Source of the DNA: Apiospora phragmitis
Taxonomy: Eukaryota > Ascomycota > Sordariomycetes > Amphisphaeriales > Apiosporaceae
NCBI GenBank assembly: GCA_038363925.1
Contig: JAQQWL010000011.1
Location: 3,906,001 to 3,970,000 of the forward strand
Direction of reading: 5' to 3'
Length of the DNA: 64,000 bases
The position numbers were made by a program, and so were the translations under genes. The notes beneath the pieces were generated by a model, which saw nothing but the letters and a program-made list of their open reading frames with translations, was not told the DNA's origin and searched no databases. This document shows positions 3,044 to 35,188 of this stretch, one piece after another. How positions within the stretch are numbered: the first letter of the stretch is position 1; each line of letters starts with the position of its first letter.

Positions 3044-4193
3044 TCAGTTGTTCTTCTTGCCGCCCTTGCCGCCCTTGGCCTGTAACACGCTCTGTTAGCT
3101 AATGGTCCTGTGAAGAGCCCGGATAAGGGTCAAATTATCAACTTACGCCCTTGTGGTGAGGCTCACGCTTGTCGAACTCAGCAGCGGCAGCGTCCTCCTC
3201 TTCCTGGGTAGTGTGGGCGTCCTCGGCGTCCTCGTCGTCGGCTTCGTCGTCGGCCTCACGCTTGTTGTTCTTCTTGCCACCCTTACCACCCTTGGCGCCC
3301 TTGTGGTGAGGCTCACGCTTGTCGAACTCAGCAGCGGCAGCGTCCTCCTCTTCCTGGGTAGTGTGAGCATCCTCAGCATCGGCCTCATCGTCGGCAGCGT
3401 CGTCGCGCTTATTGTTCTTCTTACCACCCTTACCACCCTTACCACCCTTGGCGCCCTTGTGGTGAGGCTCACGCTTGTCGAACTCAGCAGCGGCAGCGTC
3501 CTCCTCTTCCTGGGTAGTGTGAGCATCCTCAGCATCGGCCTCATCGTCGGCAGCGTCGTCGCGCTTGTTGTTCTTCTTGCCACCCTTGCCGCCCTTGGCT
3601 CCCTTGTGGTGAGGCTCACGTGTCTCAAGCTCGGCGGCGTCCTCGTCGTCTTCTTCGTGATCCTCCTCTGAGACGTCACGCTTGTTGTTCTTCTTGCCAC
3701 CCTTTCCACCCTTGGCCTATTCACGTGTTTTGTTAGCTGGGGTCCTATGAACAGCGATGGGTCTCGTGGGGAGATCAACATGGGAAACTTACACCCTTGT
3801 GATGTCGCTTGTTGTTCCTATTTGGTCCTCGGCGTTAGTATTGGTCTGTTACGAAATAAAACAGATGTATCAAGAGGGCTTGTAAATAGCTCTACAATGG
3901 GCCGCAGCCTCAACCCTCCTAAGATACTGAAAAAGGAAGGAACAAATCCCGAAAGTTACTTACTTCTTACCACCCTTCGCGCCACCCTTCGCGCCACCCT
4001 TCGCGCCCTTGTGGTGAGGCTCACGTGCGTCAATGTTGGCAACGGGGGCAGCCATGGCAGGGATGGCAAAGGCAACAAGAGCACCGGCGCCACGGGCAAC
4101 CAGGTCTCTGTGGCCAGGCAGCTCGAAGCTGTTGACGGCCGAAGCCGCCAAGAGGCCGGAGACGGCAATCTGAACGAGAGAAGGAGTGTACAT
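3044..4193 (-). CDS. Secreted kexin-processed repeat precursor (candidate RiPP or peptide precursor)
   Basis: Four exons on minus: 4193-3964, 3817-3793, 3716-3147 and 3079-3044, giving 286 residues. Introns have GTAAGT donors, and intron 1 has a TACTAAC branch point. The N-terminus has a hydrophobic signal-peptide-like segment (about residues 4-22) and a second hydrophobic stretch (about 34-50). The rest is six copies of a core such as EPHHKGAKGGKGGKKNN. Cores 3-6 are separated by acidic Asp/Glu/Ala spacers. Core copies 1-5 end in KR; copies 4-6 are preceded by DKR, copy 2 directly by the KR of copy 1, and copies 1 and 3 by AR and TR. Copy 2 lacks EP and starts HHKG; the last copy ends at the stop after NN. 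Lys-Arg sites are the known Kex2 signal of fungal pheromone, KEP and ustiloxin/phomopsin-type RiPP precursors. It is divergent from a UstYa-family gene 2.2 kb away. I do not recognise the mature peptide. Confidence 0.85.
3149..3622 (-). repeat. Three coding repeat units of about 147-156 bp
   Basis: The block beginning TTGTGGTGAGGCTCACG on plus recurs at 3151, 3301, 3457 and 3604, so adjacent units are 150, 156 and 147 bp apart. Two units are nearly identical. Length differences are multiples of 3, from extra GGK codons and spacer codons, so the frame is kept. Each unit encodes one core plus one acidic spacer of the precursor, a pattern consistent with expansion by unequal exchange. Confidence 0.85.
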
Positions 4194-6373
4194 GGTGAGT
4201 GACTTGAAGTTAGTTGAAAATAGTAGGGCTGATCCGGCAGCTGAAAGAATGACTAATACGAATCAAGGTAAAGGAGAACTAAAGAAGATGGTATCAAACC
4301 GGTAGAACGAGAATGTGATGATGATGACAAGAGCCAAGAATGGAGAAACAGGTGAGCGAGTTTGAGAGATTTATACATCTTCTGCATAGCCGCATCCAGG
4401 ATTCCATGTTGGCCCTAGAAATAACCCTGCTGGGGTTCACATCAGACGGGGACGACGACTGGGTGATAGTGTCGGATCGTCTTGTCTCGTCGGGAGTCTC
4501 ACGAAGGAGGGACATTCACCGGCCTCGCTTGCCCTGATTCGGTAGGTTGGCTTTGTGTTACTGGCATTGCGGCAGGCTAGGGGAGCCTGGTAGCCGCCGC
4601 GTACGTCTCGAAGCTATTGAGGTCTGAGGACGTGTGTGGAGGGCTCAGCTGCGACTAGGCCACCTGCGGGAATAGATGCAGCTTGATAGTCCCTCCTGTA
4701 CCAGGCCGGGTCCAATCGCGGCGCTCAGTTTGCAGCAACGAGGTGGATGCTAAGCATTGCCATCCCCCTGGCTAAGATGCGGCTGCGGACATCCAAACGG
4801 TATAGAGACGTTTCCCATATGGGGAGGACTGGGATGTACAGCCATGGGCAGAGACAAGGGTGGGACAGCGACAAGCTTCTTAGTCGCAACGAGTTGCCCA
4901 TCGGTAGGTTGTGCTGACTGACCAAATCCCGCCGTCGTTAGCTAGAGCTGAGGGTCAAGGGGCAACATCTAATGCAAGATCTTACCTATGCGGAGCCCTG
5001 TCAGTGCGAATCGATCCCATCTAATCTTTGACTTTTCGCTTCGTGGGGAAGTTTTGACCCTTGTCGTCTTTGGTGACATCACCCCCCTGTGAAACGTTTC
5101 GCGACATGGGTGAGTGCCAAGGCTTCCTCGCTAAGAGGCACCCAAAGGCATTCATAGAAGTTTGAGATGAAACCGCGAAATAAAAAAAAGCCAGCGGCGA
5201 CAACAACACAGCTGAAGGTACTGCAGCGAGAGGGAGCGAGGCTTGGCGAACGGTTGATTCACAGGCTCGAGTTGCTTAGTGATGAGAAGCAAGTAAGCCA
5301 AGCTGTCACTCATTCAATGGCGCAGATCCTCGACTTCGATCCCGCAGCCTCTAGGATTGGCCAGGTGCAGGGAATGGCGGTGTTCACCAAAACACGTTGG
5401 ACTGGGCTCTAGAGCCAACCAGGTGTGAAGAAGTCGGGGGACTTCATGGACTTCAGGGACTTCAGGTATATCATCTCTGCTTTGGGTGCGTCTAACTGGC
5501 GGTTACATAGAAATTGCAAATCCCCCAGAAACCCCAACATGGAGAGAATAGAGGGAAGAAAAAAAAGACTGGAGAGCCAGCTACCAGCTAAGCTACTGTA
5601 CCTGGACTTTCCAGGCACCCCGAACATTTTAGACTGTGACTCTCCCTCACTAGCCGTAATAAGCTTATTGAGCCTCATCTGTTCATCTGTTCAGCTTTGG
5701 CCCACAATCCCATCCATTCTCCCAAGTGCTGAGTGCCGACGGTAGTACCGCAACTGGGGGAAACAGGAGGTTCCTCTCCCTTCTACAACTTCTAAGAGGC
5801 TCAAGGAGGGGTCCCCGTCCAGCTGACGTAAAGATTGTTCGGGTTCAGGACCAGCCGTTCGGGAACCCCTGTTAGTCTTGGCAGTTTGAGACGTCGCGAC
5901 GATGTTTGAAGCCAAGCGTCGATCCCCCTGGATATTCGTTTGATCTCGACAATTCTTTCCACGCCTTTCCCCATTCTCTCGGGTTGCCGTGTTCCATTCA
6001 GTCGGTTGCTGCCCCTGCTAGCATTAAGCCGAGTGCCGTTCATCTTTGTTTTTTATGTACTGCAGAGTTGTTGGTGATTGAGGCATCCTATTTGGTTTCA
6101 TCGTAGCGGTGGGTACTACTTTGGTGTGTGTGCGCGACCTATGTAGGTAGGTATGCGAATGTGAATGGGGACTGCGTATGCCATCGGCCTGGACTCCGAT
6201 GCACCCCCTCTCCTTCTCAGAGTCTCTTTCTTGTCCATTTCCTTTCTTCCCTCTTCCTCTACACGTTTTAGACGAACGCTCTAATCTTCAGTTTCTTTCG
6301 TTTGCACCTGGCGTGCCCTTCTTATCGTCCAATATACTTTGTTGTTTGTCCTAATCAGATTTGTTTCGTTTCA
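4194..6373. other. Divergent intergenic region between precursor and UstYa-family gene
   Basis: This 2.18-kb stretch separates two divergently transcribed genes and must contain both promoters if they are used. No convincing ORF was seen. Pyrimidine-rich tracts occur just upstream of the plus-strand gene (about 6205-6300). No binding site could be named with confidence. Confidence 0.5.
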
Positions 6374-7307
6374 ATGTCGAAATTCTATCGCTCGCTCCAA
6401 ACCGTGCAGGAGGAGGAGCCATTGACCGGTGGCGATGATGATACAAGGGAAAAGCGAATCTGGACGTCAGGCACAGACTCGTCTCTCTCAAGAGGCTGTC
6501 CAAAATAACGCCGTACTGGCAGTGGATAGCCCACGTCCTCCTGCTGTCCCTGTCGTTGACGATTCTCGCTCTATCGTTCTGTGTCAAATCCTCCAGGCAT
6601 TGTCCTGTGGGTGAGCGACCACCGGAGACATACTGTAAGCTTGACTAGAATGGTCGTTGTACCTAGATGCGCCGGCAGACTAACATGATGTACATCAGCA
6701 CCGGCGCTACCGGCTATCAAATATGAGATTCAACATTTTGATCTTCCGCCCGTCCCAGAGGGGCCTTTTATTGGAAAAGGCCCTGAAGTCGACAAAATGT
6801 GGGACTACATCACGGACGACGGTATGGCTGGCTCCCATCCAAGATTACGGGCTGCATGGCTAACATATACCCACTAGTCCCCGACACCATGATATCCCGC
6901 GAGGAGATGATCAAGATGGGCCTGGACCCGGAGGGCGCACTCGAGATCACCAACCCGGCGACGGGGGAGAGAAGGGCTACCGCGTGGCGGTCGAGGTGTT
7001 CCACCAGCTGCACTGCCTGAACCTGATGCGGCAGGCCAACCACAAGTCGCACTACGCGCCCCTGGGCGGCGACACGGCGGCGCCCAAGCACGACCTGCAC
7101 AACCACATCGACCACTGCATCGACGCGCTGCGGCAGTTCGTCATGTGCCAGGGCGACGTCAACGTCTTCGCCTTCCGCTTTCCCTTCAATGACGGCGACC
7201 CGTGGCCCGACTATACCACACCTCACGTCTGCCGCAACTACGAAGGCATTCGGCAGTGGGCGGTCGACCACGGCGTGCCCCAGGTGCCGGGAGAGCCTGA
7301 TCATTAG
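6374..7307 (+). CDS. DUF3328/UstYa-family oxidase, with two apparent single-base deletions
   Basis: Exons are 6374-6610, 6699-6821 and 6878-7307, with GTGAGC and GTATGG donors and a CTAAC branch point before 6698. Restoring one missing base at each of two places gives about 263 residues, normal for the family. Order: cytosolic N-terminus beginning MSKFYRSL; one membrane segment (about 6502-6580, WQWIAHVLLLSLSLTILALS); a segment with GPEVDKMWDYI; then the diagnostic motifs FHQLHC and HIDHCIDALRQ, followed by a CRNYEGIRQWA end. In ustiloxin, phomopsin and asperipin clusters such proteins catalyse oxidative cyclization of the precursor core; other members chlorinate or hydroxylate. The frame changes between about 6442 and 6490 and again at 6966-6976, in TC-rich and GA/G-rich runs. 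Both look like sequence errors, because essential genes here show the same pattern. Confidence 0.85.

Positions 7308-31211: not shown

Positions 31212-35188
<3,977 letters not shown>

Follow-up and report, generated by a model that had tools for sequence, protein, structure and literature searches.

A probable pairing of a di-histidine repeat precursor with a UstYa-family gene in Apiospora phragmitis

Near the start of a 64,000-nucleotide stretch of Apiospora phragmitis DNA (hereafter the window, carried by a 9,183,595-base contig of the 52.67-Mb genome), a gene for a repetitive precursor protein and a UstYa/DUF3328 gene stand as divergent neighbours. By taxonomy, Apiospora belongs to the Amphisphaeriales. 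Judged on sequence, the locus is probably a pair formed by a di-histidine KEP (Kex2-processed repeat protein) and a UstYa gene, and would join a kind known from sequence alone. The evidence leans, with some room for doubt, towards the two genes serving together to make a di-histidine peptide free of aromatic residues. Aromatic-free di-histidine KEP types with DUF3328 neighbours are already in print, and the assignment made here is by type description. A preliminary description of this DNA had read the two genes as a pair that makes a modified peptide, and had called an aromatic-free core beside a UstYa gene unlike the known cases. The neighbourhood of a Kex2-type repeat precursor and a divergent UstYa gene stands. 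The claim of novelty does not, since di-histidine types are found in PMC7329392, and DUF3328 enzymes act on non-aromatic residues. A literature search, with most subscription papers outside it, turned up neither an HHKG nor an EPHH peptide from fungi, and no product of any di-histidine KEP.

The precursor gene occupies 4193 to 3044 of the minus strand. Its ATG (4193) and its stop (3046-3044) are those of the preliminary description, which held no exon model. Four exons, separated by introns of 146, 76 and 67 bp whose donors are all GTAAGT and whose acceptors are YAG, give a spliced frame that is open for 286 amino acids (aa):

3964..4193, minus strand: exon 1, leader and most of core 1; ATG at 4193, donor GTAAGT at 3963
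3793..3817, minus strand: exon 2 (25 bp), NNKR-HHKG, which is the end of core 1 and the start of core 2; acceptor ATAG before 3817, donor GTAAGT at 3792
3147..3716, minus strand: exon 3, with the remainder of core 2, all of cores 3 to 5, the start of core 6 and four acidic spacers; 190 codons open, donor GTAAGT at 3146
3044..3079, minus strand: exon 4, AKGGKGGKKNN (end of core 6) and stop 3046-3044; acceptor ACAG before 3079

The model is supported by exon 2, because its 25 bp, encoding NNKR-HHKG, join both neighbours in frame. The exon 3 region (3147-3716) has direct repeats, whose identity reaches 98% over 156 nt. In a hydropathy plot, the sole measure used, the hydrophobic residues of the leader fell at 1-20 and 31-48, and residues 7-20, a hydrophobic stretch at the putative signal, had a value of 1.93. 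A Pfam search of the 286-aa precursor gave no match. Genome-wide, no second copy of the precursor was found, the matches being confined to the window (and its spacers).

The core has the consensus (EP)HHKGAKGG(KGG)nKKNN and is present in six copies of 15-20 aa. Its sequence is HHKGAKGGAKGGAKGGKKNN once, HHKGAKGGKGGKGGKKNN once and HHKGAKGGKGGKKNN four times, one of these four without the preceding EP:

3811..4016, minus strand: core 1, the longest (20 aa), split by the 146-bp intron; residues 60-79
3684..3804, minus strand: core 2, the sole core without EP, split by the 76-bp intron; residues 82-96
3567..3611, minus strand: core 3, HHKGAKGGKGGKKNN; residues 121-135
3411..3464, minus strand: core 4, HHKGAKGGKGGKGGKKNN; residues 170-187
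3264..3308, minus strand: core 5, HHKGAKGGKGGKKNN; residues 222-236
3047..3158, minus strand: core 6, split by the 67-bp intron, with an NN-stop end; residues 272-286

Six (EP)HHKG cores, mostly bounded by KR and set among acidic spacers, were listed in the preliminary description, and the count agrees. KR follows 5 of the 6 cores, the last one running to the stop, and precedes 4, a single Arg (DAR, ETR) standing before the other 2. Five cores start with EP-HH and one with bare HH. Acidic spacers are found at 4 of the 5 core junctions, cores 1 and 2 being directly contiguous. The lack of Tyr, Phe and Trp, also pointed out earlier, holds for all six cores. Net charges are +5 to +6 for the cores and −12 to −16 for the spacers. 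The NN-stop end of core 6 likely marks the C-terminus of the mature peptide.

The repetition is far from random: the 10-mer REPHHKGAKG occurs 5 times in the precursor, and 2,000 shuffles of the protein gave no recurring 10-mer. When the six copies were compared at 12 gap-free codons, 43 of the 180 comparisons showed a synonymous difference and none a non-synonymous one (synonymous share expected for random single changes, 0.185). The copies had been chosen by an exact amino-acid pattern in which the compared residues are fixed, and the middle, of variable length, was excluded. No copy was dropped from this comparison, as further HHK copies are absent from the precursor. Over their final 24 codons, the three long spacers had 10 synonymous and 6 non-synonymous differences, a count that amounts in effect to one comparison because two of the three spacers are identical.

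The second gene was identified as DUF3328/UstYa with two motifs in the preliminary description, and both the family and the motifs are borne out. PF11807 was matched with an E value of 3.4e-31 on the intact C-terminal frame. For comparison we used P0046, the intact orthologue of A. saccharicola (UstYa gene PG996_000557; 270 aa, 14 member sequences):

6374..7307, plus strand: UstYa/DUF3328 gene, annotated publicly as PG994_010979; coding sequence in three exons, with introns at 6635-6698 and 6822-6877
6490..6634, plus strand: part of UstYa that carries the transmembrane segment WQWIAHVLLLSLSLTILALSFCV, the pieces being translated apart; helix 46-75 in the P0046 model
7002..7016, plus strand: first HxxHC motif, HQLHC; all five residues invariant in 26 aligned relatives
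7104..7118, plus strand: second HxxHC motif, HIDHC; H, H and C invariant in 26 aligned relatives

The structural model of P0046 (mean predicted local distance difference test score 73.8, predicted template modelling score 0.58) has one long helix, 46-75, at the transmembrane segment, and places the HxxHC motifs on separate helices, 167-182 and 198-219. The UstYa profile A2 had no match in the PDB. When P0046 was used as a query against the 18 other UstYa loci of A. phragmitis, 17 were matched, at 38.6% identity at most over stretches of more than 50 residues. Given this low identity, the UstYa gene of the window forms a separate branch among those of A. phragmitis.

The two genes were said to diverge at a distance of about 2.2 kb, and the ATG-to-ATG distance is indeed 2.18 kb:

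4194..6373, no strand: intergenic region between the two ATGs, 2.18 kb, divergent; longest enclosed open reading frame (ORF) listed, 106 aa

Three ORFs of this region were scanned and had no Pfam match. To estimate how often such neighbours would meet by chance, we grouped the 31 PF11807 matches of the genome into 19 loci. The 10 kb around each of these loci make up 0.36% of 52.67 Mb, so that the chance of a precursor falling within 5 kb of one is about 0.4%, a figure that overstates the rarity of the pair because this pair had been singled out by a scan seeking such pairs.

The locus has several of the features by which the published types are described. A KEP has at least 3 repeats between Kex2 sites, and this precursor has six cores. 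The G-3 and G-8 types have an HH motif with Pro, found here as EPHH in 5 of the 6 cores. A DUF3328 gene is looked for within 15 genes, and the UstYa gene is 2.18 kb off, no Pfam-matching ORF having been found between. In the survey, 1,758 of 7,878 KEPs have a DUF3328 gene within 15 genes, the adjacent position being the commonest (PMC7329392). For the di-histidine types G-3 and G-8, both with Pro, the corresponding figures are 57 of 64 (G-3) and 45 of 49 (G-8), and both types are among the ten KEP types found in most genera (PMC7329392). Seven KEP types linked to DUF3328 are abundant: four have Tyr, two are di-histidine and one has Trp, the last three with Pro (PMC7329392). Epicoccum, a G-8 genus, and Didymella exigua, which carries an EPHHKG precursor (see below), are both Didymellaceae.

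We searched for relatives of the precursor protein by scoring the 7,987 candidates with the most shared words, and five were returned. Three of the five have HH cores: P0001 of Seiridium cardinale (AB5N19_06630), with HHKGRGK cores and a related leader, P0002 of Didymella exigua (M421DRAFT_91363), with core EPHHKGKGLGALAALAKGKGKK, and the metagenome protein P0003, with core EPHHTEAQIAAKKAAKGGKKNN. The P0001 leader shares 'M..PS..Q..VSGLLA.SA.N.F...G.RDL....AGALVA.A.PA.AAP' with that of A. phragmitis, and it looks as if an intron has been retained in one of the four P0001 copies. EPHH cores are common to the Seiridium, Didymella and metagenome relatives; beyond HH, the core of the HH precursors varies widely. 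The precursor distribution spans Amphisphaeriales and Pleosporales, as does that of the UstYa clade. Scans of viral contigs and genome contigs gave no relatives.

Comparison of the precursors points to both ends of the mature peptide. In all 4 HH precursors, HH comes straight after Arg in at least one copy (1 of 6, 3 of 4, 1 of 6 and 1 of 5 copies), and in all 4 the final copy ends the protein with Asn, without KR. HH after Arg together with the terminal Asn would mean that the mature peptide is HH...N, and that EP is a trimmed dipeptide. EP following a Kex2 site is a Ste13 signature (PMC6339444, PMC9769878), and among processing enzymes the genome has one P_proprotein match (Kex2-type P-domain) and two DPPIV_N matches.

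Two Apiospora proteins, P0004 and P0005, resemble the precursor in their acidic, KR-bounded module and differ from it in lacking HHKG cores. The P0005 module is 76% identical over 63 columns (87.8 bits, where 200 shuffles did not exceed 45.4), and the P0004 tail is KKNNNKR-like. The remainder of P0005 had no match in the A. phragmitis genome. Because this acidic module (DDEAEAEDAHTTQAEEDAAAA-like; window 3147-3716) is present in Apiospora proteins without HHKG cores, it may be a peptide of its own and not a mere spacer.

Based on established KEP processing, Kex2 would cut the precursor at KR and at the single Arg, Kex1 would trim KR from the cut peptides, and a Ste13-type dipeptidyl aminopeptidase would take off the EP dipeptide. 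This would release six HHKGAKGG(KGG)nKKNN peptides of 15-20 aa, with a net charge of +5 to +6, plus acidic spacer peptides; HHKGAKGGKGGKKNN and EPHHKGAKGGKGGKKNN are candidate peptide forms of the locus. The UstYa protein, putatively a lumenal enzyme that is anchored in the membrane and carries two copper-ligand motifs (HxxHC), would meet the precursor in the secretory pathway. It could oxidise residues around Pro-His-His before or during trimming, by hydroxylation, Pro dehydrogenation or a His cross-link. Aromatic residues are not needed for DUF3328 chemistry, since the formation of dehydro-Ile, dehydro-Asp and dehydro-Pro has been linked to PhomYc, PhomYd and PhomYe (PMC10880069), and CctR has been shown to hydroxylate 2-aminobutyrate (PMC12435403). 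We propose tentatively, as one possibility, that a copper-dependent oxidase of the UstYa family modifies the conserved Pro-His-His end, for instance by cross-linking His, hydroxylating His or Pro, or forming dehydro-Pro, and yields a His-terminal, highly cationic, possibly copper-binding peptide, within a Tyr-free class of ribosomally synthesised and post-translationally modified peptides (RiPPs) that would include the di-histidine KEP types.

A number of observations weigh against a functional pair. The UstYa clade is old and broad, to judge from its members: 249 proteins were related at E values up to 1e-40, from Amphisphaeriales, other Xylariales, Leotiomycetes and Dothideomycetes, with 55-81% identity to P0046 in the best 45 rows. 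Many Xylariales have the UstYa gene and no precursor was found for them in the 7,987 candidates scored, an absence that is weak evidence because the precursor search is insensitive. Among the 120 of these 249 UstYa proteins that were listed, none is from Didymella, although D. exigua has a precursor; from Seiridium, these 120 include S. unicorne SUNI508_04358. In KEPs, HH differs little with the neighbour (5.7% with DUF3328 versus 3.9% without), and Tyr rises from 38.2% without to 65.6% with DUF3328 (PMC7329392). Thirty-three window ORFs were scanned with Pfam (beyond 12 kb they were sampled), and the matched neighbours, UstYa aside, are all housekeeping. Tyrosinase, which the preliminary description had not seen nearby, was matched 63 times genome-wide, and on the contig the closest match is about 690 kb away. 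The P450 search, with 92 of 330 candidates scored, gave 103 matches in all, and the contig region from 1.63 to 5.61 Mb had none. Finally, the UstYa gene has two frame breaks, at about 6485-6492 and 6966-6980, that are not attributable to introns.

Most of these points would fit the main rival reading, an ordinary KEP that gives linear, unmodified cationic His/Lys/Gly peptides with a signal, antimicrobial or metal-binding role, next to an old UstYa gene that is independent of it and has a different substrate. The breadth of the UstYa clade, extending to many species without a detected precursor, the absence from the cores of Tyr, the residue enriched in DUF3328-linked KEPs, with HH scarcely enriched, and the housekeeping character of the named neighbours, with no other tailoring gene found, all favour such an independent neighbour. 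This has to be set against the chance adjacency of about 0.36% and the DUF3328 association of the di-histidine types (57 of 64 and 45 of 49), while species without a precursor count little in a search of low sensitivity. We find it conceivable but doubtful that the peptides are simply linear. In a second explanation, the UstYa gene would be a true pseudogene in A. phragmitis, and only linear peptide would be made today. Besides the two frame breaks, out-of-frame stretches in the models P0006, P0013 and P0079 speak for decay. When tblastn was run with P0046, the window was matched in three frames. Against decay, identity to P0046 is 89% over the final 129 columns of the alignment, an out-of-frame start included, and both HxxHC motifs are kept. 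Moreover, the Cdc48 gene of the window (31993-34000) also changes frame twice, near 33310-33318 and 33890-33905, by comparison with a Cdc48 reference sequence. This is unexpected, as Cdc48 is an essential protein, and is a sign that the assembly contains indel errors. Given the intact orthologue in A. saccharicola and the frame changes in Cdc48, an assembly error is likelier than decay as the source of the UstYa breaks, and a pseudogene appears improbable. In A. arundinis, 7,974 bases of a long-read assembly were corrected with short reads (PMC10999098).

A mating-pheromone-like signal, processed by Kex2, Kex1 and Ste13 as alpha-factor is, was also considered. WC...GQPCW is an alpha-pheromone motif; a canonical peptide of this form was not found elsewhere by exact pattern, and with a looser pattern there were 2 scattered single hits, fewer than in the reversed control. 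Both this and the Ste13 signature of EP after a Kex2 site would suit a pheromone. However, ascomycete alpha-pheromones are of two kinds, with a two-Cys/Trp core or a PYGxPxG core (PMC6339444), and the precursor has neither Cys nor Trp and its cores no PYGxPxG, on which ground it was rejected as an alpha-pheromone. KEPs annotated as mating factor or pheromone are almost never found with DUF3328 (PMC7329392), and the core beyond HH varies widely among relatives, so that a pheromone role seems very remote. Histone-tail mimicry, suggested by the K-G-G-K repeats, was entertained as well. The pairing of precursor and UstYa enzyme remains our preferred reading.

We also compared the genera having the UstYa gene with those of the KEP types. 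The overlap was 6 of 18 for G-8 and 3 of 20 for G-3, and 9 of 35 for G-2 (pheromone) and 5 of 17 for G-7, the entry 'Eurotiomycetes', which names no genus, being left out of the G-7 list. In G-2 and in G-7, only a single member has DUF3328 (PMC7329392). The overlap, no clearer for the di-histidine types than for types without DUF3328, was dropped as evidence for pairing, and counts on the unfavourable side.

Compared with G-3 and G-8, the locus shares Kex2-processed repeats, di-histidine with Pro and a nearby DUF3328 gene, and differs in that Apiospora and Seiridium are absent from the listed genera, the likeness being one of type description (PMC7329392). With the dikaritins (ustiloxin, phomopsin, asperipin-2a) it has in common a multi-core Kex2 precursor and a UstYa-family oxidase with two HxxHC motifs. 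The differences are cores without Tyr, no tyrosinase near, a single UstYa gene and housekeeping surroundings. The locus should not be called a dikaritin locus, since its cores are not aromatic and its product is so far a prediction from the genes. The cyclochlorotine hydroxylase CctR is a membrane-bound binuclear copper enzyme, and has, like the P0046 model here, a single transmembrane helix, its two HxxHC motifs being divided between two helices; its substrate, in contrast, is a non-ribosomal cyclic peptide (PMC12435403). Ascomycete alpha-pheromone precursors are similar in their Kex2 sites, Ste13-type X-Pro dipeptide and several copies, whereas the A. phragmitis locus lacks the pheromone motif and has a UstYa neighbour.

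The UstYa-made fungal RiPPs named in the literature consulted carry an aromatic core residue. The victorin core has one as well. Two widespread KEP types with usual DUF3328 neighbours have His-His and not an aromatic residue (PMC7329392). The present locus is small and well bounded, with one precursor, one oxidase and both peptide ends predicted by comparison, and it poses a testable question, namely what a UstYa oxidase would do to a peptide without an aromatic residue.

The history of the UstYa clade was examined in a midpoint-rooted tree of 42 rows, with group labels of our own (two rows of the Amphisphaeriales group are named only 'Xylariales sp.'). Dothideomycete UstYa proteins stood beside those of Amphisphaeriales, and both were placed with Leotiomycetes, apart from 13 other Xylariales rows (support 97/92 and 100/99). 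This pattern suggests possible horizontal transfer or hidden paralogy. The out-of-frame stretches in the public UstYa models P0006 (A. phragmitis), P0013 (A. kogelbergensis) and P0079 (A. arundinis) indicate that these models may need re-annotation.

Upstream, the neighbours matched Trm732, WD40 (apparently of the Tup1 type), Tim17 and NAD nucleotidase, with an RMP1-like match below the cut-off. Downstream, the matches were FA_hydroxylase (probably a sterol desaturase), DUF2015, malate dehydrogenase, SP-RING, YL1 and an AAA protein (Cdc48).

A simple KEP detector was applied to the 19 UstYa loci of the genome (20 stretches of 10 kb). Two of them, the one in the window and one on C5, had KEP-like ORFs. 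Precursors that are short or divided by introns escape this detector, and in the window the repeats, read out of frame, set it off as well. At C7:920618-925858 (L021, L022), a tyrosinase match (922192-922542) lies between two UstYa matches, a gene set as in ustiloxin and phomopsin clusters, and the detector gave no KEP there. The C5 KEP-like ORF (C5:3806603-3806845, L024:2103-2345, minus strand) has four ERGYAK copies with LEQDQDAA-type spacers. Two UstYa matches, 3808424-3808696 and 3810408-3811127, lie about 1.6 and 3.6 kb from it, on one side. By its predicted repeats, C5 is a Tyr-bearing, dikaritin-like locus, in contrast to that of the window.

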